52,958 nt of DNA. Source: Eubacterium sp. (GTDB lineage: Bacteria > Bacillota > Clostridia > Lachnospirales > Lachnospiraceae). The position numbers were made by a program, and so were the translations under genes. The DNA lies in assembly GCA_017472565.1 (NCBI GenBank), contig JAFUPY010000073.1, positions 1 through 52,958 on the forward strand. The letters run 5' to 3'. The notes beneath the pieces are model-generated. The model was not told the origin of the DNA, made no database searches, and saw only the letters and a program-made list of their open reading frames with translations. Shown here piece after piece: positions 237 to 35,027 of this stretch (position 1 is the first letter of the stretch; every line of letters starts with the position of its first letter).

Positions 237-267
237 AAGTAATTGAAAGAAAAAGGAGTTGTGTGCT

Positions 268-1161
268 ATGACATCCGAACAGATTCAATGTTTTTTTGCA
301 GTAGTGGAATCCGGCAGCTTTACAGCAGCTGCAGAGACAATGTATATGACACAGCCAGCACTTAGTAAGCGGATTGCTGCGCTGGAACAGGAAGTGGCAC
401 TTACTTTATTTTCCCGTGATAAAACCAAAAGAACCGAACTTACCATGGCAGGGAAGGTTTTTTATGACGGATTAAAAGAAGTGTATCAATCCTTTGAAAT
501 GGTGTTGGCAAATGCCCGTAATATGGAAGCTGGAATTGCAGGAACAATCCGGTTAGGACTATTTGAAAACCAGATTATTGATGAATATCTGCAGGAAATA
601 TTGAATGACTTTTCCAGACATTATCCGAATATTGAACTGTATGTTACTACGGCAACTTTTGAACAGTTAATTGAACAGATTCACAATGGAACACTGGATT
701 GTGGGATTACTTTGGGGTATGACCTGGTAGGAAGAACAAAGTTAAAAAGCAAGGTATTGTATGCGTTAAAAACATATCTGGTAGTTCCAAATCAATTTTT
801 AGATGAGGCATGGAAAGTATACACGATAGAAGATTTCTTTGATATGCCATTTCTTACCATTCGAAAAAACAGCAATAATTTTTACCAGAGAGAAGTAAGC
901 AGTTTTGCAAAATCCCATGGATTTACGCCAAAGCTGATACAGGCTTCTGATGATAAGAACTTTATGATGCTTTTGGAGATGGGAAAAGGGGTTGCATTTT
1001 TGGATTCTTACAGTAAATGTTGTAATAGTCCAAATGTCAGATGTTTTTCATTTCCAGAGATTCCGGACACTCCGTTTAGTTTGGTGTGGTCTGAAAAGAG
1101 TAAAAATCCAGCATTGAATTATTTGTTGGAATACTTAAATGTAGATGAAAAAAGAGAATAA
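268..1161 (+). CDS. LysR-family transcriptional regulator
   Basis: A 297-residue LysR-type regulator. The N-terminal 60 residues form the winged helix-turn-helix (FFAVVESGSFTAAAETMYMT then QPALSKRIAALEQ), followed by a linker helix and a periplasmic-binding-protein-like effector domain (about residues 90-290, including GTIRLGLFENQ and MLLEMGKGVAFLD). The ATG chosen lies 9 bases after AAAGGAG; a TTG three codons upstream touches the Shine-Dalgarno sequence and is unlikely. It faces the UroD-family gene tail to tail, sharing a bidirectional terminator, so its target may be the neighbouring transporter or the catabolic genes. The effector is unknown. Confidence 0.93.
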   Translation: MTSEQIQCFFAVVESGSFTAAAETMYMTQPALSKRIAALEQEVALTLFSRDKTKRTELTMAGKVFYDGLKEVYQSFEMVLANARNMEAGIAGTIRLGLFENQIIDEYLQEILNDFSRHYPNIELYVTTATFEQLIEQIHNGTLDCGITLGYDLVGRTKLKSKVLYALKTYLVVPNQFLDEAWKVYTIEDFFDMPFLTIRKNSNNFYQREVSSFAKSHGFTPKLIQASDDKNFMMLLEMGKGVAFLDSYSKCCNSPNVRCFSFPEIPDTPFSLVWSEKSKNPALNYLLEYLNVDEKRE

Positions 1162-1172
1162 CGATAGAAAAG

Positions 1173-1210
1173 AGAACTCCCTGAGACAAATCATATCCCA
1201 GGGAGTTCTT
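1173..1210. terminator. Bidirectional terminator between converging genes
   Basis: An 11-bp perfect stem (AGAACTCCCTG with CAGGGAGTTCT) lies between the stop codons of the LysR gene and the convergent UroD-family gene. A-rich and T-rich flanks on both sides suit termination from both directions. Confidence 0.8.
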
Positions 1211-1236
1211 TATGTGAGAAGATATTTGTAGCTACA

Positions 1237-2349
1237 TTATTTACAGCAGTTTAAGAAAACTTTCAGATTTTCTTCCTTACAGTTTAATGGGATTTCACAG
1301 CCATTACCGATGATAAAGCCGCCGTCCATTGCAAGGTCAATTAACTTATCACAGTATTTCTGTGTTTCTTCTGCGGTGCCGAATGCAAGAATCTGAGGTG
1401 GCAGGTCGCCACGGATACACTGATGGCCATTTAAGATTTCTTTTGCTTTCACAATGTCTGTGTCGCCGTCTAATTCCAAGATACAGCTTCCCTTTGGTAC
1501 CTGTTTGAAGAATGGCAACATTGGTAACCAGTTGGCATCTGCGTGGATAACAGCAGTAACGCCTTTTGCGTGGAATGCTTCGATCATCTGTTTTAAGCCT
1601 GGCCAGCAGAATTCTTCGAACATATCAGGAGAAACAAATGTTGCAGAAGAACGCATAGCAAAGACCGCGATTTTGGAACCTGGCTGTGCATGCATCAGTG
1701 CAGTTTCGATAATCTGTGGGTTCGCAGCTTCCATTGCTTTTTTTACCAGTTCTGGTTCGTCGTACAGATCAAAGAAGAATGGCTCTAAGCTTCTGCACAT
1801 GGAGAAGGTGTCAAATGCTGGAGCAGTACCGCCCTGGAACATGGTTGGAACACCTCTCTGTGCCCAGAAACCGGTATTCATACCAGCGTGCATACCCGTT
1901 TCCATAAATTTTCCGCCGATTGTTTCAAACATATGCGCATCCATTGGAATTGGTGGATTCTGGATAGAAGCAATATATGGGAACTGCCATGCAGCAAATC
2001 CTTTTTCGATGATGGTATTGTAGTCATCGATGGACATGTTTTCTTTTTCTACGAACTGGAACAGTTCGTTGTCTCCAAGTTCTTTGCCAGGAATTCTTAC
2101 TGGAAGCTGTTCGATAAAAGCAACGTCATCAGGTCCCATTGGGAATACAATATCAGGATCAACACCTAATTTTTCATAGGTTTTAACCATGGCATCTAAC
2201 CAAATGTCATTGCTTTTGAATAAATCTGCCTGTGTATAGCCTGCAGGAACTGCTGCATAGGTACACATGTGAGCGTAGACAGGGATATCCTGCTTGCAGG
2301 AAACCGGTCCAAGATGAATTGCGTTTTCAAACTTTTCAAATTTGTTCAT
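1237..2349 (-). CDS. Uroporphyrinogen decarboxylase-family protein (UroD/MtaA-like methyltransferase fold)
   Basis: A 370-residue protein of the UroD superfamily, which contains heme-synthesis decarboxylases and the corrinoid:coenzyme methyltransferases (MtaA, CmuA). A conventional heme role is unlikely: the neighbours are catabolic, and a second, divergent UroD-family gene lies across the regulator. In cobalamin methyltransferases zinc is held by an H-x-C pair plus a distant Cys. Here the first site reads H269-A-D271 (Cys replaced by Asp) while the distal Cys is kept in GNGCEIP (C351). No corrinoid protein gene is visible nearby. A GAGGAGG ribosome binding site precedes the ATG. Likely a methyl- or ring-modifying enzyme in the catabolic pathway; the exact reaction is unknown. 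Confidence 0.85.
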   Translation of the reverse strand: MNKFEKFENAIHLGPVSCKQDIPVYAHMCTYAAVPAGYTQADLFKSNDIWLDAMVKTYEKLGVDPDIVFPMGPDDVAFIEQLPVRIPGKELGDNELFQFVEKENMSIDDYNTIIEKGFAAWQFPYIASIQNPPIPMDAHMFETIGGKFMETGMHAGMNTGFWAQRGVPTMFQGGTAPAFDTFSMCRSLEPFFFDLYDEPELVKKAMEAANPQIIETALMHAQPGSKIAVFAMRSSATFVSPDMFEEFCWPGLKQMIEAFHAKGVTAVIHADANWLPMLPFFKQVPKGSCILELDGDTDIVKAKEILNGHQCIRGDLPPQILAFGTAEETQKYCDKLIDLAMDGGFIIGNGCEIPLNCKEENLKVFLNCCK

Positions 2350-2396
2350 AAAAACCTCCTCATGTTATGTTTGTATATCGTTTTCTTGTTGCCTTT

Positions 2397-2424
2397 ATTA
2401 TAATAAAGAAGATGAGAATAACAA
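2397..2424 (-). promoter_or_regulatory. Promoter for the first UroD-family gene
   Basis: On the minus strand TTGTTA and a consensus TATAAT are separated by 16 bases, about 50 bases upstream of the start codon, in the divergent gap shared with the second LysR gene. Confidence 0.6.
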
Positions 2425-2481
2425 AAGTACAGTGTTGTTATGAGCTCATTCTGATTTCAGAAGGAATCCATGAGATTGTTG

Positions 2482-2518
2482 TATAATTGGGATAAAAAGA
2501 TTGCGGAATATGGCCAAT
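2482..2518 (+). promoter_or_regulatory. LysR promoter -10 and candidate LysR operator in the divergent gap
   Basis: A TATAAT hexamer (2482-2487) points toward the second LysR gene. Just downstream is a perfect dyad ATTG-N11-CAAT (2500-2518), similar in geometry to LysR half-sites. Because the UroD-family gene is transcribed the other way, this is a natural place for control of both genes. Binding is inferred. Confidence 0.4.
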
Positions 2519-2564
2519 TCAAGGTATGATAGCTATATAGTATTTTTAAAGGAACGGTGCAAAT

Positions 2565-3449
2565 ATGACCATTACTCAGATGCAGGCCTTCCTGGAAGTG
2601 GCCCGCTGTAAAAATATTTCAGAAGCGGCAAAACGTCTCTATATTACACAGCCTGCCCTTGGGCGGCAGTTGACAGCTATTGAACGAGAACTGAATATGC
2701 AGCTGATGATCCGAAGCAATCGTGGCGTGCGTCTGACTCCAGCGGGGATTGCCCTGCAGGAAGAATTGGAAAAAGCCATGGAACATGTCAAATCCGGTAT
2801 TTCCAAGGCAGAACAGGCTTCCTATGGCTATTCCGGTAATCTGACCATTGGTTTGTTGGACGAGTTGGATATCATGGATGAACTGGTAGATGTAATCAGC
2901 TACTTTGAACTTAAATTTCCAAACATTAATATCAAGTTTAAGCGCAATAGCTTCAAAGCTTTGGTTGACGGGATATATGATGGAAGCTTAGACGCAGTGA
3001 TTTCGTTAAGTGTCAATTTCCTTGGATGCAAGGACTTGAATCTGCGAAACATCAGACGATGTCAGGAAGCCTTTGCCGTACCAATCGGTCATCCATTAGC
3101 GAAAAAGGAAGCACTGAGCTTTGGTGATTTTAGAGGTGTTCCACTGGCCATTGTTGATCGTGACGACTGTTCCGAAGGTGTAAAATTTGTTGAACAGATA
3201 TTTTATGAAAATGCAGGATTTTTTCCGGATTTTTATTTTACGACCACCATGAAAGATGCTATGTTCTGGGTAGAATCCGGAAAAAAATGTGCCGTTATCA
3301 ATATGGATATGACAGTAGCTAAGTCCAAACATGTGAAGATGTATCCCTTTGATGGTGGTGATGATTTTTCTATACAGCTTGCATCAAAGGCTGGAAATGA
3401 GAGTTACGAGATACATCTGCTAAATGAATATTTTACAATGCAAAAATAG
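2565..3449 (+). CDS. LysR-family transcriptional regulator
   Basis: A 294-residue LysR regulator with the N-terminal helix-turn-helix (MQAFLEVARCKNISEAAKRL and TQPALGRQLTAIE) and an effector-binding domain from about residue 90 (GNLTIGLLDELD). It is divergent from one UroD-family gene and lies directly upstream, on the same strand, of another, so both are plausible targets. The closest relatives in architecture are regulators of aromatic-compound or cofactor catabolism that sense a pathway intermediate; the ligand here is unknown. The start sits about 9 bases after AAAGGAA. A terminator follows the stop, so it is probably transcribed alone. Confidence 0.93.
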   Translation: MTITQMQAFLEVARCKNISEAAKRLYITQPALGRQLTAIERELNMQLMIRSNRGVRLTPAGIALQEELEKAMEHVKSGISKAEQASYGYSGNLTIGLLDELDIMDELVDVISYFELKFPNINIKFKRNSFKALVDGIYDGSLDAVISLSVNFLGCKDLNLRNIRRCQEAFAVPIGHPLAKKEALSFGDFRGVPLAIVDRDDCSEGVKFVEQIFYENAGFFPDFYFTTTMKDAMFWVESGKKCAVINMDMTVAKSKHVKMYPFDGGDDFSIQLASKAGNESYEIHLLNEYFTMQK

Positions 3450-3470
3450 CATATTGGATGCAAATAATAA

Positions 3471-3508
3471 GGTGTTATGCCTAAAAGGGCATAGCATCTT
3501 TCTTTTTT
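3471..3508 (+). terminator. Intrinsic terminator after the second LysR gene
   Basis: An 11-bp stem with G-T wobbles (GGTGTTATGCC with GGCATAGCATC) and a short A-rich loop is followed by TTTCTTTTTT. Confidence 0.8.
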
Positions 3509-3513
3509 GGAAT

Positions 3514-3594
3514 TTTACTCTATGGCAAAAGCCTTTTATAATGATGATAACAACAAGGGGATTGTCAGTGTATAGGAGTTTGGGGACACTGACA
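3514..3594 (+). promoter_or_regulatory. Promoter and palindromic operator/leader of the second UroD-family gene
   Basis: TTTACT and TATAAT (3537-3542) are separated by 17 bases. About 20 bases downstream of the -10 is a perfect 9-bp inverted repeat, TGTCAGTGT (3563-3571) and ACACTGACA (3586-3594), separated by 14 bases. It lies in the transcribed leader just ahead of the Shine-Dalgarno sequence. It could be a repressor operator or an RNA hairpin; there is no T run after it, so a plain terminator is unlikely. Confidence 0.6.
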
Positions 3595-3632
3595 GCGTTA
3601 ATTATCAATATTTTGTCAGGAGGGTTTTTACT

Positions 3633-4691
3633 ATGAACTTAACACCAAGAGAAAACGCATTAATCGCTTACAGACACGGCACACCGGCATGGATTCCATG
3701 CTTCTACACAGACATCGCGCTGTTCCAGGCAAATCCTGGAGGAGAACGTTACGCAGGTCATGACCATGGGACAGACTGGTTCGGCATTGACTGGACATTC
3801 GTTCCGGCAGCAGGTGCTCCAATGCCAACGAACCACCATGGTCTGTTTGATGACATTACAGAATGGAAAGACTATGTAAAGTTCCCAGATCTGGATGCTA
3901 TTGATTGGAAAAAACAGGCGGAGATTGACTTACATACAAACTTTGTAGCATTCGCAGCAGGTGCAGGACTGGTTCCATTAGAAGATGGCAAGAGCCTTAC
4001 CGATGAACCAAAATTAATGGTTTGTATGGTGATCAATGGTATGTTCGAACGTCTTCATGCATTCATGGGTATGGAAAATGCACTGGTTGCACTTATGACA
4101 GAACCAGAAGCTTGTAAGGAATTCTTCCATGCAATGGCAGATTATAAGATTGCTTACTTTAAGAAAATTGTTGAGCATTACCCAGTAGACGTAATCAATG
4201 CACACGATGACTATGGTACCAATGATAACTTGTTCATGGCTCCAGAAGTTTGGCGCGAACTGATCAAACCAGAATTAAAACGTATCGTTGATGCTTGTCA
4301 CGAAATGGGCGTACTTTACCAGCATCATTCCTGTGGTTACATCGAACCATTAATGGAAGATTTCGTAGAAATCGGCATTGATGCCATCGACACACTGCAG
4401 GCAGGCAGCAATCCTAACTTAAAAGAACTGAAACAGAAATACGGTGACAAGATCACATTCTGTGGCGGTTTTGATAACTTAAATATCCTTGACAGAGCTG
4501 ATGTAACAAGAGAAGAAGTACACGCTGAATACGAACGTGTCATCAACGACTTAGCTCCAGGCGGAAGCTACGTGATCTATCCAATCGGTCTTGGATTTAG
4601 CTTTATTCCTCATTTCCTGGAAAAACACTTCCAGTACGGAATGGGCTTCTATCAGATGCAGGCTGCACAGCAGGGTGAACAGGCAGAATAA
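3633..4691 (+). CDS. Uroporphyrinogen decarboxylase-family protein, HxC-type
   Basis: A 352-residue UroD-superfamily protein, distant from the first one. It carries HHSCG (H232-S-C234) at the end of a core beta strand, the metal-binding signature of cobalamin- and coenzyme M-type methyltransferases, and a further Cys in FCGGFDN (C277). The distal Cys found in MtaA is replaced by a glycine-rich YPIGLGFSF segment. The N-terminus (TPRENALIAYRHGTP) matches catabolic UroD-family members rather than HemE. It has a strong AGGAGGG site, its own promoter and its own terminator, so it is a single-gene unit. It probably handles a methyl or carboxyl group on the compound degraded by the downstream genes; this is inference. 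Confidence 0.87.
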   Translation: MNLTPRENALIAYRHGTPAWIPCFYTDIALFQANPGGERYAGHDHGTDWFGIDWTFVPAAGAPMPTNHHGLFDDITEWKDYVKFPDLDAIDWKKQAEIDLHTNFVAFAAGAGLVPLEDGKSLTDEPKLMVCMVINGMFERLHAFMGMENALVALMTEPEACKEFFHAMADYKIAYFKKIVEHYPVDVINAHDDYGTNDNLFMAPEVWRELIKPELKRIVDACHEMGVLYQHHSCGYIEPLMEDFVEIGIDAIDTLQAGSNPNLKELKQKYGDKITFCGGFDNLNILDRADVTREEVHAEYERVINDLAPGGSYVIYPIGLGFSFIPHFLEKHFQYGMGFYQMQAAQQGEQAE

Positions 4692-4801: not shown

Positions 4802-5380
4802 TTAATTTCTAAAATTATAAAACGACCCACACAGCATATTGCCCCCAATTTCAGAGATTTCCTGACAGGACATCTCTGGATTTTCAAAGAACCAGTAGGT
4901 GTACAAGCCGATAACAGCGGCAGCGAACAACTCTGTAACAACATCCAGGTTGTAGCCGGTAATCTGATCAAATTCAAATTTGTTTCTCACATCCAGTCGT
5001 ATCTGTTTTTTCCATTTAAAAATGAATTGTGGATCACCGTGGGCAGAAAGCAGTGCTTTGAAATATTTTTTCTTGCTGTAAACATATTCTGCTGTCTCAT
5101 AAAATACGGGAAATGGCTTGCCTTTTTTATATTCTCTAATAGGCGTATTTTTTAATACACGATTAATTTCTTGCATTCTTGCCAGTAATTCCTCTTCGAT
5201 ATATTCCAATACCTGGTATTTATCATCAAAATATCTGTAAAAGATGGTTTTGGAAATGTTCGCTTTTCCACATAAATTCTGTACGGATACCTTATCAATA
5301 CCTACAGACTCATATAATTCGATAAAACTTTCTTTGATATCCTCCATTGTGCGTAAACGGTTTAGTTCGTTTCGGTTCAT
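4802..5380 (-). CDS. TetR/AcrR-family transcriptional regulator
   Basis: A 192-residue TetR-type regulator with the N-terminal helix-turn-helix (IDKVSVQNLCGKANISKTIF then YRYFDDKYQVL) and an all-helical C-terminal ligand domain. The ATG was chosen because AAAGGAG lies 8 bases upstream; the longer frame extending 29 codons upstream has no such signal. It diverges from the PhlG-type hydrolase and TRAP operon, the classic arrangement for a repressor of that operon. A TATAAT on its own strand and an inverted repeat in the intergenic gap suggest autoregulation. The ligand would be expected to be the pathway substrate, but that is not shown. Confidence 0.9.
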   Translation of the reverse strand: MNRNELNRLRTMEDIKESFIELYESVGIDKVSVQNLCGKANISKTIFYRYFDDKYQVLEYIEEELLARMQEINRVLKNTPIREYKKGKPFPVFYETAEYVYSKKKYFKALLSAHGDPQFIFKWKKQIRLDVRNKFEFDQITGYNLDVVTELFAAAVIGLYTYWFFENPEMSCQEISEIGGNMLCGSFYNFRN

Positions 5381-5452
5381 GATCTCTTCTCCTTTACCCT
5401 TCTTGTGCCCCATTTTGTCTATACGTGAACCTAAAACCCTTTCACTAACTGA

Positions 5453-5505
5453 ATTATAGCATAACAACAGTAACTAAAGTTTACGAAATGAGTGAAAAAG
5501 TAAAC
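5453..5505 (-). promoter_or_regulatory. tetR promoter -10 with candidate TetR operator
   Basis: On the minus strand TATAAT occupies 5453-5458. The dyad GTTTAC-N15-GTAAAC (5479-5505) covers the expected -35 region, so a bound repressor would block RNA polymerase. The rest of the gap up to the hydrolase gene (5506-5705) is AT-rich. It holds an imperfect dyad, GTTGAG / GTCAAC, and no clear consensus promoter. Confidence 0.45.
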
Positions 5506-5705: not shown

Positions 5706-6653
5706 ATGGCACATTTTCCAAAGTTAACAAACGAAGATTTTAAAACATATCCAAAGACAGAATGGAAGGAAGAGTGGAAAGGATCTCCATGGGAAGAAAT
5801 TTTCAATAGACCATTGGCTGATGTATCTCAGGAACAGTTGGATGCACTGAACAATGGTCCATGTAACCCACAGTTGGCAATGCCAATTGAAAACAGAAGT
5901 GATCTGTTCCTTCCAGGTGAACAGTCAGTAGAAATCGGTTACTGTGCAATGCCTGACGGAACCGGTTTTGTAGCAAACAGAACGTTCTTTCCAAATGCAA
6001 CACCAGAAATGCTTGACTGGTGGATGAACTTCCATCCATTATCCGGGGAACGTCTGGCAGCATGGCTTCCAAATGCGCATCTTGACTGCTATGTAAGAGA
6101 ACCGTATTTACATTGTGATGAATCTGGATTCTCTCTTGCAACTCGTAACTGGGGCAAAGAACATATGGCATCTGAAGGCTTAACAAGCTTAGAAGAATCC
6201 GGTCTATGTCGTCTGAAATTCTATTCCCCACAGGATGTTGGCCTGGATATGATCAAAATTGCACTTTCTCCAGTGAAAGCACATGCATTCCTGTCTGTGG
6301 TTTTCTTTGGCGATGGGCTGGTAATGTTTGGCGAAGAACAGGCAAAAGAAATTCTTGCAAAAGATCCAAATGCACAGATTCCATTTAATTGTCTGTTGCA
6401 CACATTCCGTCCAGTTCCAGGTGGTTGCGAACTTCGAAGCCGCTTCTGGATTGGAAAAGGTATCAAGAACGGTGTTCCTTATACAACACTTCCAAAAGGT
6501 ATGGATGCAGAAGCAATTTCATGGGTAATGTTAAGACATACCATTCAGGAAATGTCCAACTTAGCATCCTTCTTACCAGAGATGTACAACAAGTATGAAG
6601 GAAAGATTTTACTGAAAGACATTGTGGCTCCACAGCCAGAAAATGCAATCTAG
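5706..6653 (+). CDS. PhlG-type (DAPG/phloretin hydrolase family) C-C hydrolase
   Basis: A 315-residue protein of the diacetylphloroglucinol hydrolase family: zinc enzymes that hydrolyse a carbon-carbon bond next to a carbonyl. Pseudomonas PhlG and the phloretin hydrolase of Eubacterium ramulus are the known types. The family core is present: GYCAMPDGTGFVANRTFFPN, the Trp-rich DWWMNFHPL, then H125, E157, H232 in LLHTFRP, GGCELRSRFWIG, and H278-TIQ-E282. The spacing H125 to E157 and the HxxxE pair match the zinc ligands described for PhlG as I recall them. It has a GAGGAGG site and lies 23 bases before the TRAP transporter genes, so it probably acts on what they import. It is longer than the 265-residue paralogue downstream, with an extended N-terminus and a C-terminal tail. 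Confidence 0.85.
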   Translation: MAHFPKLTNEDFKTYPKTEWKEEWKGSPWEEIFNRPLADVSQEQLDALNNGPCNPQLAMPIENRSDLFLPGEQSVEIGYCAMPDGTGFVANRTFFPNATPEMLDWWMNFHPLSGERLAAWLPNAHLDCYVREPYLHCDESGFSLATRNWGKEHMASEGLTSLEESGLCRLKFYSPQDVGLDMIKIALSPVKAHAFLSVVFFGDGLVMFGEEQAKEILAKDPNAQIPFNCLLHTFRPVPGGCELRSRFWIGKGIKNGVPYTTLPKGMDAEAISWVMLRHTIQEMSNLASFLPEMYNKYEGKILLKDIVAPQPENAI

Positions 6654-6676
6654 TTTCAAGACATGGAGGAGAGAGT

Positions 6677-7198
6677 ATGACAAAGTTAATTAACGCGTTT
6701 AAAAAGATTGGTACAGCGTTAAGTGTAATCTCCATTGTGGCATTGCTGATTATGGTATGTCTCACGATTGCAGACGTATTTTTAAGAACATTCTTCAAAG
6801 CGCCAATTCCTGGTACAGTTGAGATTGCCCGAATGATGATGGTTACAATGACCCCTTGTTTTACTGCTGTATTGATGAGAAATATGCACGTAGACGTAGG
6901 TCTTTTAGTTGATAAGTTCAAACCAAACGCACAGCTTGCATTTGCTGCTTTTGGACATGTCTTGTCTGCGATTGTCTGTGTATTGATGTGCTATCAGGGA
7001 TTTATGGATATGGCAAAGAAAATGTCACAGCATCAGGTTTACACCATGCTGAAGATTCCAACCTGGCCATTCTATATGATTTTTGCCATTGCCATGGGAT
7101 TCTTTGCCGTAGCGATCGTAGTAAAACTGATTGATAAGATCATAAGAAAAGATGTAGTAGTTCCAGAAGAGAAAGAAGATGGGGAGGTGTCAGCATGA
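6677..7198 (+). CDS. TRAP transporter small permease (DctQ type)
   Basis: A 173-residue membrane protein with four predicted transmembrane helices (about residues 13-35, 52-70, 86-106, 125-150). FLRTFFKAPIPGTVEIARM is the typical DctQ signature between helices 1 and 2. It forms the membrane complex with DctM for sodium-driven, binding-protein-dependent uptake. The stop codon overlaps the DctM start (ATGA), indicating translational coupling. The acidic C-terminal tail (VVPEEKEDGE) is cytoplasmic. Confidence 0.93.
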   Translation: MTKLINAFKKIGTALSVISIVALLIMVCLTIADVFLRTFFKAPIPGTVEIARMMMVTMTPCFTAVLMRNMHVDVGLLVDKFKPNAQLAFAAFGHVLSAIVCVLMCYQGFMDMAKKMSQHQVYTMLKIPTWPFYMIFAIAMGFFAVAIVVKLIDKIIRKDVVVPEEKEDGEVSA

Positions 7199-8490
7199 GT
7201 ACCGAAATCTTAGGTATTATTGGCGTAGCCATTCTGATTATACTGATTCTCTGCAAAGTGTGGATTGGCGCTGCTTTGGCCATTGTTGGCTTCCTTGGTA
7301 TCGTCCTTATTAGTGGATTTGACACCGCTATGGGCACACTGGTGCTTTCACCTTTTGCTCAGTTGGATAACTATACCACTACAGCCATACCGATGTTTAC
7401 GCTGATGGGTATGATTATAGCAGAGACCAGTATAGGCAGGAATCTGTTTAATTTTGCAAACAAATTTTTAGGACGAGCACCGGGTGGTGTTGCAGGCGCT
7501 ACTGTAGTTGCAGCAGGTCTAATGGGTGCTATCACAGGTTCCGACAACGTATCCTGTGTCATCATGTCCAAACTGGCGCTGCCAGAGTTAAAACGTTATA
7601 ACTATCAGGATTCTCTTGCAACTGCATCTGTAGCAGCAGGCGCTCCACTGGCAATCTTGATTCCACCAAGTATGGCATTCATCCTTTACGGTATGCTGAC
7701 AGAACAGTCTGTAGCCAGCCTGTTTTCTGCTGGTATCATGCCGGGTATCGTAATGGTAGCTGCCTTTGTAGTAGCTATTCTGATTGTATGTAAGAAAAAT
7801 CCGAAACTAGGACCAAAAGGTGCAAAATTTTCAACGAAAGAAAAGTTAGAAGCACTGGTTGGTGTTATTCCTGTACTGATTCTGTTCGTTATTGTATTAG
7901 GAAGTATCTATCTTGGCTTCTGTACCGTAACAGAAGCAGGTGCTATTGGCTCCTTGGGTGCATTTATTATTGCATTGTTCAGCAAAGACCTGAACATCAA
8001 AAAAGTTGGAAAGATTTTAACAGAAACCATTGTTTGCACAGGTTTCGTTATCTTCCTTCTGGTTGGCACTTATGTATTTATCAAATTTATCACTATTTCC
8101 AAGTTGCCGTTTGCAATTACAAATATTGTAACTGGATTGGATGTAGCACCAGGAATTATCCTGCTGGCGGTAGCAATCATGTACATCATTCTTGGTATGA
8201 TTATGCCTCAGATTCCAATGATCATCCTGACTGTTCCGCTGCTTTATCCAGCAATGATGGCAATCGGATATGATCCAATCTGGTTCGGTGTATTCGTAGT
8301 AATGATGATGGCTTTAGGTGCAGTATCTCCACCAATCGGTATGGATGCATTTATTGTATCAGGTATTTCCAAAGTTCCGGTAATGACCATTTACAAAGGG
8401 CTGATACCATTCATTGTGGCAGATATTATTGTAATATTCCTTTGCTGTATCTTCCCGCAGATCGTACTTTGGTTACCGTATTCAATGTAA
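7195..8490 (+). CDS. TRAP transporter large permease (DctM type)
   Basis: A 431-residue protein with about a dozen hydrophobic helices. Family hallmarks are FTLMGMIIAETSIGRNLF near the first third, GAITGSDNVSCVIMSKLALP, AGAPLAILIPPSMAFILYGML and, near the end, ALGAVSPPIGMDAFIVSGIS. It is the sodium-coupled translocation subunit of the TRAP importer. The start overlaps the DctQ stop and has its own GGGGAGG site. A small hairpin in the gap before the binding-protein gene probably tunes mRNA levels between the two. Confidence 0.96.
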   Translation: MSTEILGIIGVAILIILILCKVWIGAALAIVGFLGIVLISGFDTAMGTLVLSPFAQLDNYTTTAIPMFTLMGMIIAETSIGRNLFNFANKFLGRAPGGVAGATVVAAGLMGAITGSDNVSCVIMSKLALPELKRYNYQDSLATASVAAGAPLAILIPPSMAFILYGMLTEQSVASLFSAGIMPGIVMVAAFVVAILIVCKKNPKLGPKGAKFSTKEKLEALVGVIPVLILFVIVLGSIYLGFCTVTEAGAIGSLGAFIIALFSKDLNIKKVGKILTETIVCTGFVIFLLVGTYVFIKFITISKLPFAITNIVTGLDVAPGIILLAVAIMYIILGMIMPQIPMIILTVPLLYPAMMAIGYDPIWFGVFVVMMMALGAVSPPIGMDAFIVSGISKVPVMTIYKGLIPFIVADIIVIFLCCIFPQIVLWLPYSM

Positions 8491-8505
8491 TAAGTTAGAA
8501 CCTAA

Positions 8506-8522
8506 TATCAGTAATACTGATA
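8506..8522 (+). other. Small intercistronic hairpin between permease and binding-protein genes
   Basis: A perfect 7-bp stem TATCAGT with ACTGATA around a 3-nt loop, 15 bases after the DctM stop. It is weak and AT-rich, with no long T tract, so it is more likely an mRNA-stability element than a terminator. Confidence 0.4.
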
Positions 8523-8553
8523 AAAATATTTTAAGGAAAAACAGGAGGTTTTT

Positions 8554-9642
8554 ATGAAAAAGAAAATTTTAGCTCTCGTATTATGTGTTGGCTTAATCGC
8601 ATCCTTCGCTACCGCATGTGGCAATGATGAAGGTGCAGCAGGCAATGGCAGTGGCGCTGCAGCTGGAAATGAAGAGGTGTACAAATTTGATGTATCCTTT
8701 GCAACTCCAGAACCAATCACTGTAGCAATGACAGAAACATTTGAACGCATTGAAGAAGCGTCTAATGGCCGTATTGAATTTACATATTATTACAGTTGGT
8801 CCTTAAGTAGTGTTAATACAATTATTGATGATTTTAATACGGGTATCGTAGATATCGGTGTTGTTCCGATCAACATGCATACAAACCTGTTCCCATATTC
8901 TAATCTTGTAACAGATACGCCATTTATGGGCATCCCAAGTATGGAAGCAAACACTATCATTTATGACGAACTGTATGATGAATATGATGTGTTCAAAGCA
9001 GAATTTGACAATGCAGGCTTGCATTACTGGACATGTTTTGCAAACGCACCATACCATCTTTTCTCAGTAGGTAACAATGCAATTACAACACCAGCTGATT
9101 TAAACGGTGTAAAACTGATGACAGATGATGCCATGTTACAGCAGTATATTACAAACCATGGTGGTGCTCCTGTATCCAGCCCGGTTACTGAATATGCAAC
9201 AAACCTTAACACAAACGTTGTTGATGGAGCAATCAACCACGGTGCTACCTTCTCTGCATTTGGATGCTTAGATTTCCTGAATTCTGCAACCATCTTTGGT
9301 GATCAGGGAATTTTATCCTCCATCGCTTGTGTATGCTTCTCCCAGGATGCATGGAATTCACTTCCAGCAGATCTGCAGCAGTTATTTGATGATGAAGCGA
9401 CTAACTTAAGAGACAACTATACAGCAGAAGTTGCAGCAATGGCAGATGGCGCAATCCAGACATTAGTAGACAGCGGCAAAGACATTGTGTTCTTAACAGA
9501 AGAACAGATTGCAGCATGGAGCGAAGGATTTGATGACATCTTAGCAGATAAAATTGCGGAATTAGAAAAAAATGGTGCAACAGAAGCACAGAAATACTAT
9601 GACATCGTTCAGGATAAGATTGCTGCATATCCGGCAGAATAA
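8554..9642 (+). CDS. TRAP transporter substrate-binding lipoprotein (DctP type)
   Basis: A 362-residue extracytoplasmic solute receptor. The first 21 residues are a lipoprotein signal (KKKILALVLCVGLIASF) with lipidation expected at C22 in ATAC, followed by an acidic, Ala/Gly-rich linker. The mature part follows the DctP pattern (VSFATPEPITVAMTETFERI; DIGVVPINMHTNLFPYSNL; EGAIN-like VVDGAINHGATF). Most DctP proteins bind a carboxylate through an Arg in a KxR motif; here that position reads GVKLMTDD, with Met189 in place of Arg. This suggests that the ligand is not a simple carboxylic acid. The GGAGG site is strong. Confidence 0.94.
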   Translation: MKKKILALVLCVGLIASFATACGNDEGAAGNGSGAAAGNEEVYKFDVSFATPEPITVAMTETFERIEEASNGRIEFTYYYSWSLSSVNTIIDDFNTGIVDIGVVPINMHTNLFPYSNLVTDTPFMGIPSMEANTIIYDELYDEYDVFKAEFDNAGLHYWTCFANAPYHLFSVGNNAITTPADLNGVKLMTDDAMLQQYITNHGGAPVSSPVTEYATNLNTNVVDGAINHGATFSAFGCLDFLNSATIFGDQGILSSIACVCFSQDAWNSLPADLQQLFDDEATNLRDNYTAEVAAMADGAIQTLVDSGKDIVFLTEEQIAAWSEGFDDILADKIAELEKNGATEAQKYYDIVQDKIAAYPAE

Positions 9643-9675
9643 TTAGTTCCCTTTCGGATTAAGGTTCAATAGAAA

Positions 9676-9705
9676 ACAGCCTTCGAGAATTCTCGGAGGC
9701 TGTTG
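9676..9705 (+). terminator. Hairpin after the TRAP binding-protein gene (weak terminator)
   Basis: A 12-bp stem with one wobble pair, ACAGCCTTCGAG with CTCGGAGGCTGT. It lacks a good T run (TGTTGTAC), so it may be partial and let transcription continue into the BKACE gene 30 bases on. Confidence 0.6.
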
Positions 9706-9734
9706 TACACTAAAAATGAAAGAGAGTATGAATT

Positions 9735-10610
9735 ATGGCTAGAAAAATTATTGTTACCGCTGCCTTAACAGGTGCCTTTCAGGGAAAAGCGCAGTGTCCT
9801 GGTCTGCCAGAACAGCCAGATGAAATCGCCCAGGCAGCCTATGAATGTTATAATGCAGGTGCATCTATTGTGCATCTGCATGCTAGAGATAAAAACGGAA
9901 TCAATGTAACGGATCCAAAGATTTTCAGCGAAATCAACAGTAAGATTCGTGCAAAGTGTCCAATTATCACACAGGACTCCACTGCACCGGCAACAAGACC
10001 TGGATTTGATCCGAATTACTGCAGGAGCAGTCTGGAGATATTTGATGCAGAGTTTCTGCCAGAGATGGCTTCTCTGGATGTGGCTTTGATGTATGCAAAA
10101 TGGCAAGGAGAAGGGGCTATGTATGCATGGACCAGAGATGTTTTGATAGAAGCTGCCAAAAAGATGCAGGAACTGAAAATCAAACCAGAGATTGAGATTT
10201 TCAGTCCAACCAATCTGGAGGATGTTGAAGATTACTTGTTATCTTATATTCCGCAACCATTGTCATATAATATTGTTATGGGGATGTCTATTACCCAGGG
10301 TGCCATGAAGTATTCCCCAGAAAATTTAATGGATACGGTAAAAAGATTGCCAAAAGGATGCAATTTTTCAGTTATGCATGTAGGCGCCCGTGAGTTAGAA
10401 GGCGCAATGATGGGGATGCTCCTTGGCGGTGGTGTTCGTGTTGGTTTGGAAGACAACATCTGGTACAGAAAAGGAGAAAAAGCAAAGAGCAATGCTCAGT
10501 TGGTAGAGCGTGCTGTTCGCATGATTCGTGAATTTGGATTTGAAATTGCCACTCCGGATGAAGCAAGAGAAATCTTAAATATCCCGCCATTATCTATTAG
10601 CGGTAGATAG
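9735..10610 (+). CDS. Beta-keto acid cleavage enzyme (BKACE/Kce family)
   Basis: A 291-residue TIM-barrel zinc enzyme of the BKACE family (DUF849). The family condenses a beta-keto acid with acetyl-CoA and splits the product into acetoacetate and a shorter acyl-CoA. The zinc site is visible as H47-L-H49-A-R-D and the glutamate of GLEDN (E239), with D240 next to it as in Kce. GGVRVGLEDNIW and NFSVMHVGARE are typical. The Shine-Dalgarno sequence is weak (AAGAGAG). The next gene is a CoA transferase 9 bases downstream. The substrate could be a product of the PhlG-type hydrolase or a triacetate-like keto acid; family members vary widely, so this is inference. Confidence 0.93.
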   Translation: MARKIIVTAALTGAFQGKAQCPGLPEQPDEIAQAAYECYNAGASIVHLHARDKNGINVTDPKIFSEINSKIRAKCPIITQDSTAPATRPGFDPNYCRSSLEIFDAEFLPEMASLDVALMYAKWQGEGAMYAWTRDVLIEAAKKMQELKIKPEIEIFSPTNLEDVEDYLLSYIPQPLSYNIVMGMSITQGAMKYSPENLMDTVKRLPKGCNFSVMHVGARELEGAMMGMLLGGGVRVGLEDNIWYRKGEKAKSNAQLVERAVRMIREFGFEIATPDEAREILNIPPLSISGR

Positions 10611-10619
10611 GAGGATGGG

Positions 10620-12152
10620 ATGAAAGTAATAACGGCAAATCAGGTTGCCAGTCTGATTCAGGATAACGCTTATTTAGGAGTGGGTGGATTTGGTGCTTTT
10701 GGAGCACCAGAGGAACTACTGATTGCGATTGCAGAAGCATACAAGTGGAAGGGAACGCCTTCTAATTTAACCATAATCTCAGGTATTAGCTGTGGAGATA
10801 TGACCAAAGACGGTCGTGGCTTGAACCATCTGCGTGCGCCTGGTCTGATTAGAACAATGATTGCGGCCCATGTTGGGGTACCTGCATCCATCGGCAACGC
10901 CATTGGAGAAAATAAGATTGCAGGATTTATGCTGCCAATGGGTGTTTACGACAACCTGCTCCGTGCAAAAGCGGCTAATCGTCCAGGATTCCTTACGAAA
11001 GTAGGATTGAATACTTTTTGTGACCCTCGTATCGATGGGTGCAAGGTGAATTGTCTGGCCAAAAAATGTGATGCAGAAATTGTACGTTTGATGGAAATTG
11101 ATGGAGAAGAATATCTGTTTTATAAGACCTTCCCAATAGACGCCTGTATCATTCGTGGTACCTATGCAGATGAAGATGGAAATATTTCTCTAAAAGAAGA
11201 GGCCCTGATTGCAGAACAGTTAGAGATGGCCATGGCAACCCGTAATACTGGTGGCAAAGTCTTTGTTCAGGTAAAAGAGATTGTTTCGTCTGGAACACTT
11301 CCAGCAAAGGAAGTACATATTCATCATAAATTTGTAGACTACGTAATTGTAGCAAAGCCAGAAAATCATCCACAGGGATTTGACAATCCAGAGCTTCGTT
11401 GGGAGTTAACTGGAGAAAAAAGAGTACCTTTAGAGTCTATTCCTGAGATGGAATTATCTGTTCGAAAGGTCATTGCCCGAAGAGCTGCCCAGGATTTAGA
11501 AAATGGTGCGTTGGTGAATCTGGGAATCGGAATGCCTGACGGTGTAGCTATGATTGCCAATGAAGAGGGCATCAACGTTACACTTTCAATAGAAAGTGGG
11601 ACCTTAGGAGGTGTCCCTGTAGGCGGGCTCGGTCTTGGCGCTTCTGTCAATCCAGATGCCATTTACCACATCGCAGATAACTTTGATATGTACGATGGCG
11701 GTGGCCTTGATATGGCGTTCCTTGGAGCTGCCCAGATCGACAAGCATGGCAATGTGAATGTGTCAAAGTTTGGCAGTAAATGCACTGGACCAGGGGGATT
11801 TATTGACATTACCCAGAGTACAAAGAAAGTATACTTTATGGGAACATTTACTGCAGGGAAAGCAGAGTACGAGATCAAAGATGGTGAGATCCATATTGTA
11901 AAAGACGGAACAGGCATCAAGTTCGTCGATCAGGTAGAACAGATTACCTTTTCCGCAAAATATGCCAGAAACAACGATCAGCAGGTATGCTACATTACAG
12001 AACGTGCAGTCTTTGAATTGACAGAAGAAGGATTCCTGTTGACGGAGATTGCACCAGGTGTAGACCTGCAGAAAGATATACTAGATAAGATGGAGTTTGC
12101 TCCAGTTATTTCATCAAACTTAAAAACAATGGATGCACAGATTTTTTCATGA
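10620..12152 (+). CDS. Acyl-CoA:acetate/3-ketoacid CoA transferase, fused alpha-beta type
   Basis: A 510-residue single-chain family I CoA transferase (YdiF/Pct-like). The N-terminal alpha half begins GVGGFGAFGAPEELL. The C-terminal beta half carries NLGIGMPDGVA and the catalytic glutamate E325 in SIESGTLGGVPVGG. Such enzymes move CoA between acetyl- or acyl-CoA and acetoacetate or similar acids through a glutamyl-CoA intermediate. It starts 9 bases after the BKACE stop behind GGAGG, so the two are co-translated. The natural role would be to turn the acetoacetate released by BKACE into acetoacetyl-CoA for thiolysis. It ends at a terminator. Confidence 0.94.
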   Translation: MKVITANQVASLIQDNAYLGVGGFGAFGAPEELLIAIAEAYKWKGTPSNLTIISGISCGDMTKDGRGLNHLRAPGLIRTMIAAHVGVPASIGNAIGENKIAGFMLPMGVYDNLLRAKAANRPGFLTKVGLNTFCDPRIDGCKVNCLAKKCDAEIVRLMEIDGEEYLFYKTFPIDACIIRGTYADEDGNISLKEEALIAEQLEMAMATRNTGGKVFVQVKEIVSSGTLPAKEVHIHHKFVDYVIVAKPENHPQGFDNPELRWELTGEKRVPLESIPEMELSVRKVIARRAAQDLENGALVNLGIGMPDGVAMIANEEGINVTLSIESGTLGGVPVGGLGLGASVNPDAIYHIADNFDMYDGGGLDMAFLGAAQIDKHGNVNVSKFGSKCTGPGGFIDITQSTKKVYFMGTFTAGKAEYEIKDGEIHIVKDGTGIKFVDQVEQITFSAKYARNNDQQVCYITERAVFELTEEGFLLTEIAPGVDLQKDILDKMEFAPVISSNLKTMDAQIFS

Positions 12153-12175
12153 TGTATCAAATATTTCTCCTTTAG

Positions 12176-12210
12176 AGAAGACTCACAGTTGTAGTGGGTC
12201 TTCTTTTCTG
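12176..12210 (+). terminator. Intrinsic terminator of the BKACE-CoA transferase operon
   Basis: An 11-bp stem AGAAGACTCAC with GTGGGTCTTCT (one G-T pair), 7-nt loop, then TTTCTG. Confidence 0.8.
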
Positions 12211-17361: not shown

Positions 17362-18159
17362 ATGAAACCAGAATTGACCGTTAATGAAAAGAAGCTTTCA
17401 TATGCAAAATATTTTGACCAGCCGTTGGCACCAATTCCAGAGGAAAAACTTGCGATTTTAGCAGGAGAACCACTGAGGGAAGACCAGATGTTAAAGTTGA
17501 CCGAGCGTGCAAAGCTGTTTGACGCAGGGTATTTGGAAGCTGAAACCGGCTATGGTATTATGCCAGACGGCACTGGCTATGTGGCAAACCTTACATACAT
17601 GCCGGGTGTAACAAAGGAAATGTTTGAATGGTGGTTCGCATGGCATTGTTTGGAAGATGCCAGATATAAAATCTGGGATCCGGAGGATCATTACTTTGCA
17701 AGAACACAGGATATGCAGACTGCTATGAACAAAGGTCTGCCAATGCGTGAGAGAACCTGGGGAACTACACATGAGGTGAGAGAAGATGTAGGCAATGGTC
17801 CGGAAGACCTGATCATCGAATTCAAGAAACCATCTGAGATGGGATATCCGGAAGAACTGGTTGGTACAGAGGCTTGTGCATCTATGATGTGCGCCAATGT
17901 CCATGGCACAGAACCAGGCAAAGGAATGCCGGTTGTTATGACCCATATGATCCGTGAAGTGGAAGGTGGCATCGAGCTTCGCAGCCGTTTCTGGATGGGC
18001 TATCAGCTTCTTTGGGGCATGCCGATGAAGCAGACACCAAAGGGATTTATGATTCCGGAGGAGGCAGCAAAAGCAGTGCTTCATCATAATATGAAGGAAT
18101 ACACCAACCTGGCAGCTATCCTGCCAGCTCTTTACGAAGAAGAAAAGGATAGATTTTAA
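17362..18159 (+). CDS. PhlG-type (phloretin/diacetylphloroglucinol hydrolase family) C-C hydrolase
   Basis: A 265-residue hydrolase, close in size to PhlG-type enzymes and to the roughly 31-kDa phloretin hydrolase of Eubacterium ramulus. Shared core: GYGIMPDGTGYVANLTYMPG, FEWWFAWHCLEDARYKIW, H110 in DPEDHYFA, H137/E141 in THEVRE, H195, GGIELRSRFWMGY and H242-NMK-E246. The 31-residue spacing between H110 and E141 and the HxxxE pair reproduce the PhlG zinc ligands as I recall them. The known reaction is hydrolysis of an aryl or acyl C-C bond in a polyketone phenol. AAAGGAG precedes the ATG. Compared with the 315-residue paralogue it keeps the canonical KIWxPxxH motif, so it is the better candidate for a phloretin-type activity. 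Confidence 0.88.
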   Translation: MKPELTVNEKKLSYAKYFDQPLAPIPEEKLAILAGEPLREDQMLKLTERAKLFDAGYLEAETGYGIMPDGTGYVANLTYMPGVTKEMFEWWFAWHCLEDARYKIWDPEDHYFARTQDMQTAMNKGLPMRERTWGTTHEVREDVGNGPEDLIIEFKKPSEMGYPEELVGTEACASMMCANVHGTEPGKGMPVVMTHMIREVEGGIELRSRFWMGYQLLWGMPMKQTPKGFMIPEEAAKAVLHHNMKEYTNLAAILPALYEEEKDRF

Positions 18160-24469: not shown

Positions 24470-26787
24470 ATGAACGAGTATGTAAGAGAACTTCCTACCG
24501 TGGCGCTTCGTGGATTAACGATCCTGCCTGGCATGGTGGCTCATTTCGACATGAGTCGTGAAAAATCCATAAAAGCAGTAGAAGCAAGTTTGACTGGGGA
24601 CAGTCAGATTTTTCTGGTAACGCAGAAAGATATCAACGAAAACGACCCAAAGGTAAATGGTTTATATAAATACGGTGTGATTGCCACAATCAAACAGGTA
24701 ATCAAGCTAAAAAATGATGTTGTCAGAGTTTTAGTGGAAGGCAAACGCAGAGCAGAGCTTGCCTGTCTGAATGACCATCCGGATTTTCTGTATTCCACTG
24801 TAATCGTAATGGAAGAACAGGATACGGATTTTCCACAGGAAGTGGTGGAAGCGATGCTGCGTGTGACACAGGAAACGCTGATGGGCTATTGCCTGGAAAA
24901 TCCAAAGGTAGGCAAGGAACTGGCAAAACAGGCGGGCATGCTGACAAAGCTGCCAACCCTGTTACAGTTGATCGCCAACGAACTGCCGTTGGAATTTACC
25001 GAGCGTCAGCGTGTTTTAAACGCCAATAACATTGAACAGCGTTACGAAGTCATCATTGACATTCTGGTAAAAGAAACCAATGTTATTCGTGTTAAAAATG
25101 AATTACAGCAGAAATTAAAAGAAAAAGTAGATAAAAATCAGCGGGATTACATCCTTCGTGAAGAAATGAAGGTGATCCGGGAAGAACTGGGCGAAGACGA
25201 TCTGGAAAAAGATATTGAAAAATACTACGAACAGTTAGAAAATCTTCAGGCTGACGATGGCATTAAGGAAAAGATCGCAGCCCAGATTGAGCGCTACAAA
25301 AATGTAGCAGCCAATCCATCTGAAAGCAGTGTGGTGAGAACCTACATCGAGACATTGCTGGATCTGCCTTGGAATAAAGTATCTGTAGATAATGTGGATC
25401 TGAAAAATGCACAGCAGATTTTGGATGAAGATCACTATGGACTGGAAGATGTAAAGACTCGCGTGCTTGAATTTCTGGCAGTGCGCCATATGACAGACAA
25501 GGGCAATGCCCCAATCATCTGTCTGGTTGGCCCTCCGGGCACTGGTAAAACCAGTATTGCCCGTTCCATTGCAAGAGCACTGGAAAAAGAGTACGTGCGC
25601 ATCTGTCTTGGCGGTGTTCGTGATGAGGCAGAGATTCGTGGTCACAGAAGAACTTACATCGGTGCAATGCCAGGACGTATTGCCCAGGGCATTCGTCAGG
25701 CAGGATACAGCAATCCATTGATGCTTCTTGACGAAATCGACAAGATGAGCAGTGATTATAAAGGGGATCCAACCTCTGCTATGCTGGAAGTGTTGGATTC
25801 GGAACAGAATAACAAGTTCATGGATCATTATGTGGATCTGCCAATGGATCTGTCAGAGGTCATGTTTATTGCAACTGCCAATGAGGCCGGCAACATTCCA
25901 AAGCCTCTGTTAGACCGTATGGAAATCATCCAAGTATCCAGCTACACAGCCAATGAGAAGCTGCATATCGCCAGGGAGCATCTGGTGAAAAAGCAGAAGA
26001 GTCAGCACGGCTTAAAAGCAAGCCAGGTGGTTTTCACAGACGCAGTATTGCGCCATATTATCTCTGGTTACACAAGAGAAGCCGGTGTGCGTAGTTTGGA
26101 GCGGAAAATCGGTGAAATCTGCAGAAAAGCAGCCCGTGAGATTTTTGAAGGCGAGAAAAAGACCGTTCGCGTGTCCGAAAAATCTCTGGAGAAATATCTT
26201 GGTAAAGAGCGTTATACCATTGATTTAAAAAATGAAAAGACGAAATTGGTATTGTACGCGGTCTGGCATGGACCAGTGTTGGCGGCGATACCCTTCAGAT
26301 TGAAGTAAATATCATGCCAGGCAAGGGCGAATTTGTCCTGACTGGTAAGCTGGGCGATGTAATGAAAGAATCTGCCCAGGCAGGCATCAGCTACATCCGT
26401 TCCATTGGCGATAAATACGGTATCAAGCCAGAGTTTTTCCGGGAAAATGATATTCACATTCATATTCCAGAAGGAGCCGTACCAAAGGATGGACCATCTG
26501 CTGGTATCACCATGGCAACAGCCATGTTGTCAGCCATTACCAAGACCCCAGTTCGCGCAGATATCGCTATGACTGGTGAGATTACACTGAGAGGCCGCGT
26601 GCTTCCAATCGGTGGACTGAAGGAAAAACTGCTTGCAGCACAGATGGCAGGCATGAAGATTGTCTGCGTTCCAATCCAGAACAAAAAGGATGTGGAAGAG
26701 ATTTCAGAAGAAATCAAAGCGGGTATGGAGATTGTGCTGGTGAGTACGATGGATGAAGTGATAAAGTTGGCCTTTAAGTGTGAGTAG
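24470..26787 (+). pseudogene. lon: Lon protease (ATP-dependent, LonA), interrupted by a frameshift
   Basis: The first frame (24470-26308) gives the N-terminal substrate domain, the coiled segment and the AAA+ module (Walker A GPPGTGKT at 354-361; Walker B MLLDEIDKM), then ends in 20-odd foreign residues. The protease domain continues in the -1 frame: [11 protein letters not shown] starts right after GAAAAG at 26234-26239, and 26314-26787 holds the catalytic Ser (KDGPSAGI) and Lys ([10 protein letters not shown]). Restoring one A in the run at 26235-26238 rejoins [11 protein letters not shown] without loss. Upstream the -1 frame has a stop (TGA), and the site is not a good slippery heptamer, so programmed frameshifting is unlikely. 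It is either a real inactivating mutation or an assembly/sequencing error. The full product would be about 772 residues. Confidence 0.9.
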
Positions 26788-34134: not shown

Positions 34135-34135
34135 G

Positions 34136-35014
34136 ATGGATCATTTGGATAAATTGGAAGCGAAGAGCGTTCATATTTTACGCGAAGCCTATGCAGCATT
34201 CGGTAACCTGTGCATGCTCTGGTCAATCGGTAAAGACAGTACCGTACTGTTATGGCTGGCAAGAAAAGCATTTTACGGACACGTACCATTTCCACTGGTA
34301 CACGTAGATACCCATTATAAAATTCCAGAAATGATCGAATACCGCGATCGTCTGGCAAAAGAGTACAACCTGTACATGATTTACGGTGAAAACAAAGAAG
34401 CGCTGGAAGCAAAAGAAACATTCCCAGACGGCAAAGTTTCCCATATGGAATGCTGCAAACGTCTGAAAACAGAAGCGCTGACACATACATTAAATGGTAC
34501 ATGGCCACGTTACCGTCTCAATCTTGAAACTGGTCTGTATGAACGCGACACAGATACAGCTGCTTATACAGGTGTTATCGTAGGTGCTCGTTCTGACGAA
34601 GAAGGATCCCGTTCTAAAGAACGTTACTTCTCTCCACGTGACCAGTATAATGACTGGAACTTAGATGACCAGCCACCAGAATTCTGGAATCAGTTCAAGA
34701 CAGACTTTGCACCAGATACACACGTGCGTATCCATCCACTTCTTGACTGGACAGAGTTAAATATCTGGGAATACATTGAACGTGAAAACATTCCAACGGT
34801 TTCCCTGTACTACAACCAGGGCGATGGAACAAGATATCGTTCTCTTGGCTGTGCTCCTTGTACAAAACCAATCAAGTCTGAATCCAGAAATGTTCGTGAG
34901 ATCATTGAAGAGTTAAAGACAGGTGCATTATCCAATATCGCAGAGCGTAGTGGACGTGCACAGGATGCAGAAGACGGCGGATTAGAAACACTTCGTCGTA
35001 ACGGATATATGTAG
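34136..35014 (+). CDS. cysD: Sulfate adenylyltransferase subunit 2 (ATP sulfurylase catalytic subunit)
   Basis: A 292-residue CysD of the PAPS-reductase-like (adenine nucleotide alpha hydrolase) fold. The PP-loop is [11 protein letters not shown], followed by [34 protein letters not shown] and the C-terminal [13 protein letters not shown]. It forms APS from sulfate and ATP with CysN. It starts one base after the sulfotransferase stop behind AAGGAGG, and the fused CysN-CysC gene follows 13 bases on. It lacks any neighbouring reductase genes. Confidence 0.97.
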
Positions 35015-35027
35015 GAGGGCACAAAAG

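Follow-up and report, generated by a model that had tools for sequence, protein, structure and literature searches.

A Compact Lachnospiraceae Operon Joins a PhlG-Family Carbon–Carbon Hydrolase to an Arginine-Less TRAP Importer, a BKACE and a CoA Transferase

Gene Content and Layout of the Operon

What compound is broken down by an operon in which a carbon–carbon hydrolase shares a strand with a TRAP importer and two enzymes of beta-keto acid metabolism? The question is raised by positions 5706–12152 of contig JAFUPY010000073.1 from a metagenome-assembled genome (MAG) of Eubacterium sp., family Lachnospiraceae (assembly GCA_017472565.1). The whole 52,958-nucleotide stretch that was analyzed is called the window below. 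The operon is real, compact and unusual, in that it puts known enzyme kinds into a new combination and carries three residue changes relevant to specificity. The reading to which we give somewhat better than even credence is that a neutral or phenolic compound is imported and hydrolyzed by the PhlG-family enzyme, PhlG1, and that the resulting beta-keto acid is salvaged by a BKACE and a coenzyme A (CoA) transferase. The analysis shows which genes are present and how they are arranged, that the catalytic positions are kept, that three residues are odd, and that phloroglucinol-pathway enzyme kinds are encoded on two other contigs of the genome (C117 and C5).

The initial annotation described a PhlG-type hydrolase, a full TRAP importer, a BKACE and a fused CoA transferase on one strand with a divergent TetR regulator, and both coordinates and Pfam matches agree with it. 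The parts that it named are located at 5706–12152 on the + strand, each above its Pfam curated cut-off. PhlG1 comes first (5706–6653; PF18089, E 3.7e-50), followed by the TRAP small permease DctQ (6677–7198; Pfam E 5e-25), the large permease DctM (7195–8490; Pfam E 4.9e-89) and the solute-binding protein DctP (8554–9642; Pfam E 1.7e-32). The BKACE (9735–10610; Pfam E 1.4e-77) and a fused 3-oxoacid CoA transferase of the YdiF/FadX kind (10620–12152; CoA_trans, E 1.1e-31) complete the set. The TetR-family regulator lies on the − strand at 4802–5467 and passes both TetR_N and TetR_C_8. By blastp it is 65% identical over 191 residues to an ortholog at locus L008, in an Oscillospiraceae MAG, and its true start is probably residue 30 of the open reading frame (ORF), where the alignment with that ortholog begins.

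From PhlG1 to the CoA transferase, the intergenic gaps in the ORF list are 23, −4, 63, 92 and 9 bases, and from 5706 to 12090 a consensus scan listed nothing terminator-like on the + strand. Behind the CoA transferase gene, at 12174–12206 on the + strand, is a terminator-like hairpin that has a T-rich tail (−17.4 kcal/mol, z −4.0, none of 200 shuffles as good); it was spotted by eye, and the consensus terminator scan did not list it. Promoter-like sites on the + strand are present inside the operon, but the region holds fewer of them (11) than its shuffles (21.4). Because the gaps are short, no internal terminator is listed and a hairpin closes the set, 5706–12152 is likely to be one transcription unit. 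The layout also bears on the suspicion that a misassembled or misbinned contig has brought unrelated genes together. The source MAG (2.1 Mb in 126 contigs, 68.6% complete) has 3.2% contamination, and our searches turned up no second copy of the set, as such an artefact would have it; but the spacing is short and coherent throughout, a single hairpin closes the unit, and another PhlG-family gene lies on the same contig, and we consider an artefact very improbable.

Specificity Residues of the Hydrolase, the BKACE and the Importer

PhlG1 scores 171 bits against PF18089, for which the curated cut-off is 22.7. In an alignment that includes solved homologs, H125, E157, H278 and E282 fall at positions that we take to be the His, Glu, His and Glu zinc ligands of the family, and these four are kept in all three full-length PhlG1 rows. 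PhlG1 thus has its family and the aligned zinc-ligand positions in common with PhlG (3hwp) and phloretin hydrolase (5xe5, 5xey). It differs from them at Leu117, where the solved PhlG and phloretin hydrolases carry Tyr: Leu occupies this position in 3/3 full-length PhlG1 rows and Tyr in 10/10 other rows of the family. The position is presumably that of Tyr121 of PhlG, which we believe to contact the substrate. PhlG1 rows also have an insertion: between residues 195 and 225 of the window protein they count 30 residues, where the other rows have 4 to 16. A tree of 13 rows places them in one group with support of 99/99. Against the PhlG equivalog model NF047887, PhlG1 reaches 79.7 bits and is far below the cut-off of 600; two paralogs, PhlG2 and the one at C102, also miss it (110 and 120 bits). 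PhlG2 is the second PhlG-family gene of the window, located behind a DJ-1/PfpI gene (17362–18159, + strand). A further difference from PhlG and phloretin hydrolase is the setting of PhlG1 in an operon with a BKACE and a TRAP importer.

The BKACE (PF05853) is intact at H47, H49, R235, E239 and D240, which we take to be its metal-binding and catalytic residues. It was compared in 36 rows, comprising the window protein, 27 rows from genomes of the order, four from the genomes of loci L008 and L009, and four plasmid loci. The Arg-Glu-Asp residues are found in all 36 rows, and His at both metal positions in 32, including the window protein; the four plasmid rows lack His at the first metal position. 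At the specificity position, that of Glu14 in Kce, 19 rows have Glu, 10 Trp, 4 Met and 1 Arg, and 2 have Phe, namely the window protein and one from genome G094. According to PMC10470551, Kce has Glu14 and triacetate lyase has Trp16. Phe15 of the window BKACE is therefore unlike both the triacetate lyases (Trp) and the lysine-pathway enzymes (Glu), and the Trp that marks a triacetate lyase (TAL) is absent. The window protein is about 40% identical to the two Trp-type BKACEs of its own genome, and the fourth BKACE of the genome, at C34, is Glu-type. Against the triacetate/3,5-dioxohexanoate model NF053538, it reaches 142.6 bits of the required 430, a cut-off that the Trp-type enzymes of the genome also miss at about 216; in a further model, it scores 239.2 bits against a cut-off of 382. 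The CoA transferase aligns to YdiF over residues 3–509 (E 7e-118), with a Glu, presumably the catalytic one, aligned in the E-[TS]-G motif; its 415.7 bits fall short of the 750 set for FadX proper (NF052271).

The TRAP importer is complete, with DctP, DctQ and DctM all above the Pfam cut-off, but DctP has Met189 at a position where five displayed solved homologs (two of them nearly identical) have Arg. The six other DctPs of the genome all keep the Arg. According to PMC4646407, that Arg selects for carboxylates and is present in 5943 of 6142 DctP sequences; one solved protein without it has ethanolamine bound and another has a hydrophobic pocket. The window protein accordingly lacks the conserved arginine expected of a carboxylate TRAP, a loss that it shares with Csal_0678 and Tp0957. 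It differs from the arginine-less proteins reported in that survey, which mostly have Phe (Ala in Tp0957), by its Met, and from Csal_0678 and Tp0957 by its place in an operon with a C–C hydrolase. The closest DctP relative found is in genome G495 (locus L085), at 28–29% identity (49% for its DctM), and it too has Met at the arginine position. That Met-type TRAP (L085 8341–14099, C85) is clustered with a FabK-type flavin mononucleotide (FMN) reductase and a fumarate-reductase-type flavoprotein. The same two families lie directly before the PhlG paralog at C102 of the source genome. They recur at C119 of that genome, with two genes between them, in a stretch of about 12 kb that also holds two PhlG paralogs and an Arg-type TRAP. 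These neighborhoods give modest support to an association of Met-type TRAPs with phenolic metabolism. Literature searches returned nothing relevant on what the closest solved relatives of DctP bind, and no paper joining a TRAP transporter with flavonoids, phloroglucinol and the gut. An arginine-less TRAP protein in the operon of a C–C hydrolase is a rare chance to guess a ligand class, and the substitutions in DctP (Met), PhlG1 (Leu) and the BKACE (Phe) make the question of the substrate an interesting one.

The Genome's Probable Equipment for Phloroglucinol Degradation

The phenolic setting proposed in the initial annotation is backed by the rest of the genome. PF18089 has seven matches in it, one more of them, besides PhlG1, on the window contig. 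Any match at all is found in 17 of 230 genomes of the family, the source genome included, and the next highest count is five. C117 groups a Trp-type BKACE with an SDR, a cyclase-family hydrolase and a dehydrogenase of the 3-hydroxyacyl-CoA type. C5 has a partial set, in which another Trp-type BKACE is joined by a cyclase, a dehydrogenase, a thiolase and an iron alcohol dehydrogenase; no SDR was recognized in the 18 kb read there, where Pfam was run on some of the ORFs only. These are the enzyme kinds of the anaerobic route that, according to PMC10470551, leads from phloroglucinol to triacetate and on to acetoacetate and acetoacetyl-CoA via a BKACE. The organism looks equipped to consume phloroglucinol, as far as individual activities can be judged from family, and the window operon looks like an addition to that equipment. 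Since C117 carries the pathway enzyme kinds, phloroglucinol itself could be degraded without the window BKACE.

The phloroglucinol pathway employs a BKACE together with a CoA transferase to convert a polyketide acid to acetoacetyl-CoA (PMC10470551), and both enzyme kinds are encoded in the operon. The two differ in that the operon lacks a reductase, a cyclase and a dehydrogenase, and its BKACE is Phe-type; PGR, DPGC, TfD and TAL are co-located in that pathway, but the BKACE stands alone in the operon. The operon has a TRAP importer, and the word TRAP is absent from the main text of PMC10470551. A simple phloroglucinol cluster was not favored for the operon, given the missing reductase, cyclase and dehydrogenase and a BKACE that is not Trp-type.

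Another reading is a variant of the known polyphenol route. PhlG1 would free phloroglucinol from phloretin-like compounds, and the window BKACE would reinforce the C117 pathway as a third triacetate lyase. The enzyme sets at C117 and C5 agree with this, as does a Mycobacterium triacetate-lyase cluster that contains a PhlG-family gene (phloretin hydrolase), with CtfAB in the neighborhood figure (PMC10470551). We nonetheless find the variant quite doubtful: the BKACE has Phe in place of Trp at only about 40% identity to the Trp-type enzymes, no reductase, cyclase or dehydrogenase is in the operon, and PhlG1 has Leu where phloretin hydrolases and PhlG have Tyr.

The PhlG paralogs at C119 have a peculiarity of their own. 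Two PhlG-family genes are adjacent there (L017 4585–6704), near the Arg-type TRAP, and in one of the two proteins Asn and Tyr replace two of the zinc ligands, so that its metal may have been lost.

Proposed Pathway

In the reading that we prefer, TetR would control a catabolic operon in an anaerobe whose genome also codes for phloroglucinol breakdown. The TRAP importer, having lost the carboxylate-selecting arginine, would take up a neutral or phenolic compound instead of an ordinary organic acid. PhlG1, as a zinc C–C hydrolase with a changed pocket, would, to judge from its family, cut the bond beside a carbonyl of a 1,3-dicarbonyl compound, phloroglucinol-like or otherwise. PhlG1 heads the same apparent unit as the BKACE, and its acyl product is for that reason suggested to be a keto acid. 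The beta-keto acid so released would react with acetyl-CoA on the BKACE to give acetoacetate and an acyl-CoA, and the CoA transferase would move CoA onto the acetoacetate to give acetoacetyl-CoA. With the acyl-CoA as the donor and a thiolase, one of which is encoded at C5, this could run as a cycle whose net result is keto acid plus CoA to acid plus acetyl-CoA with no ATP spent. Any phloroglucinol released would pass to the C117 pathway. The gene identities and the hydrolase/BKACE/CoA transferase logic of the initial annotation hold up in this scheme.

Distribution of the Genes and Its Bearing on the Pathway

The sets of genomes searched overlap and sample larger groups, and those of the organism's own groups include the source genome. 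PhlG1 was found in two of 61 relatives (E up to 1e-3), these being the source genome and G001, the latter at the level of a paralog (33%). At 1e-40, it was found in three of 397 genomes of the family (the source, G495 at 58%, and a C-terminal remnant in G547), and at 1e-45 in the source alone among 391 of the class. A scan of named genomes gave two loci, L008 and the remnant at L009. The BKACE has matches in 25/196 genomes of the order (1e-40), the best outside the source being that of G094 at 49%; it was found in the source alone among the 391 class genomes (1e-58), and G094 is the only one of the 22 genomes of its own family to give a match. Four BKACE matches of 36–40% come from the genomes of L008 and L009, two from each; three are Trp-type and one is Glu-type. 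DctP was matched in the source alone among 299 family genomes (1e-40), and in four chosen genomes (1e-15), it was matched in G495 alone, at two places (29% and 28%). A plasmid collection held BKACE relatives in 547 records, PhlG1 relatives in 13 and DctP relatives in 164, all below 60% identity; the gene tables of five plasmid regions, which are incomplete, showed no PhlG plus BKACE set.

Around PhlG1, the regulator is what travels with the gene. At L008, a PhlG1 ortholog of 77% identity is beside the orthologous TetR described above. At L064, in G495, the ortholog of 58% shares its surroundings with a TetR (36%), a GntP-type permease, a PhlG2-type gene and a third, weakly matching member of the PhlG family. 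L009, in G547, has an isolated C-terminal PhlG1 remnant at 10040–10345 (88.5% over 87 residues). No more than about 6 kb separates a PhlG2-type gene from PhlG1 at L064 and from the remnant at L009. No palindrome common to the window and L008 was found that would serve as a TetR operator. The initial annotation had named the lack of a conserved neighborhood as refuting its reading, and this holds in part: a TetR is kept near both full-length orthologs, but no TRAP, BKACE or CoA transferase homolog was found in the stretches read. The full set was seen in no other genome searched, and neighboring chemistry has been published (PMC10470551). A widely conserved pathway is not supported by these searches.

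Several of these results weigh against the pathway proposed above. The full set has no second occurrence among the genomes searched. By BLAST of the ORFs in the stretches read, no TRAP, BKACE or CoA transferase homolog surrounds PhlG1 at L008 or L064, so that two functions may have been joined by chance. The Phe-type BKACE of G094 has anion transporters of the citrate/sulfate type, split genes for a CoA transferase and a thiolase around it, a neighborhood that hints at an acid substrate, and no PhlG is found in the 10.6 kb seen; the contig stops some 400 bases past this BKACE. The source genome has two Trp-type BKACEs that already fit the phloroglucinol pathway, and the contamination of the MAG has been mentioned. 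Finally, Arg-to-Ala and Arg-to-Lys mutants of a TRAP protein are still functional or support growth at high substrate (PMC4646407), so the loss of the Arg is no proof of a neutral ligand.

An alternative is two modules lying side by side, with TetR–PhlG1 as a stand-alone acylphloroglucinol hydrolase and the TRAP, BKACE and CoA transferase importing and cleaving a beta-keto acid, for instance 3-oxoadipate or a different oxo acid. TetR and PhlG1 recur without the rest at L008, a TetR is near PhlG1 at L064, and the nearest Phe-type BKACE is surrounded by genes for anion transporters, a CoA transferase and a thiolase, without a PhlG. On the other side, PhlG1 and DctQ are 23 bases apart with no + strand terminator listed between them, and a DctP without the carboxylate arginine speaks against an ordinary oxo acid. 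We regard two modules as unlikely, if worth keeping in mind.

A Possible Hydrolytic Route for Flavones

A narrower version of the preferred pathway can be drawn for flavones and other polyphenols that are 1,3-diketones, as a hydrolytic, non-reductive route. If PhlG1 and the BKACE act in series, then the acyl group cut off must be a 3-oxoacyl group and the substrate a 3-oxoacyl-phloroglucinol. Candidates would be a ring-opened 2-hydroxyflavanone (a hydrated flavone), a dibenzoylmethane or a ring-opened 2-alkylchromone. The arginine-less TRAP would import the neutral compound; PhlG1 would release phloroglucinol, bound for the C117 pathway, and an aroylacetate. The BKACE, with its aromatic residue at the specificity position, would convert the aroylacetate to acetoacetate and an aroyl-CoA, and the CoA transferase would return the CoA to acetoacetate. 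This version is improbable in our estimate, because no hydratase was recognized and the PhlG1 orthologs have no neighboring BKACE. A literature search found no paper joining phloretin hydrolase with dibenzoylmethane, 2-hydroxyflavanone or benzoylacetate.

If the hydrolytic route is true, it would give aroates and acetyl-CoA and need no reductant, unlike the reductive route described for gut flavone breakdown, and there would be a TRAP importer for a neutral polyphenol. The acyl product of the reductive route is presumably an arylpropionate, no substrate for a BKACE, whereas the gene pairing in the window implies a beta-keto acid. What the two have in common is the hydrolase family: the reductive route runs through FLR, CHI, EnoR and PHY, and PHY, the last enzyme, is a PhlG-family hydrolase that releases phloroglucinol (PMC7862272). 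The Mycobacterium precedent, with its PhlG-family gene beside an ordinary triacetate lyase (PMC10470551), pulls the other way and weighs against the flavone version. Fission of the catechin A-ring via a substituted triacetate was another candidate and was not chosen, as the operon has no reductase.

Other Genes in the Window

Directly before the operon, at 259–4691, are two LysR genes, each adjoining a gene of the URO-D family. One of the URO-D genes has a weak likeness, below cut-off, to MtaA/CmuA methyltransferase models, and a URO-D-like gene near the PhlG paralog at C102 is 28% identical to one of them. These genes possibly serve the O-demethylation of methoxylated phenolics. At 32995–36881, a sulfotransferase (Sulfotransfer_3), a PAPS_reduct-domain protein and a fused GTPase/adenosine 5′-phosphosulfate kinase are encoded in a row. 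This looks like a cassette for making 3′-phosphoadenosine 5′-phosphosulfate and sulfonating an acceptor, perhaps phenols or sterols. The Lon protease at 24470–26787 is split into two ORFs of 612 and 157 amino acids in different frames, by a frameshift or an assembly error. A protein with a protein-kinase domain (Pkinase, E 1.3e-25) is encoded at 48686–49807.

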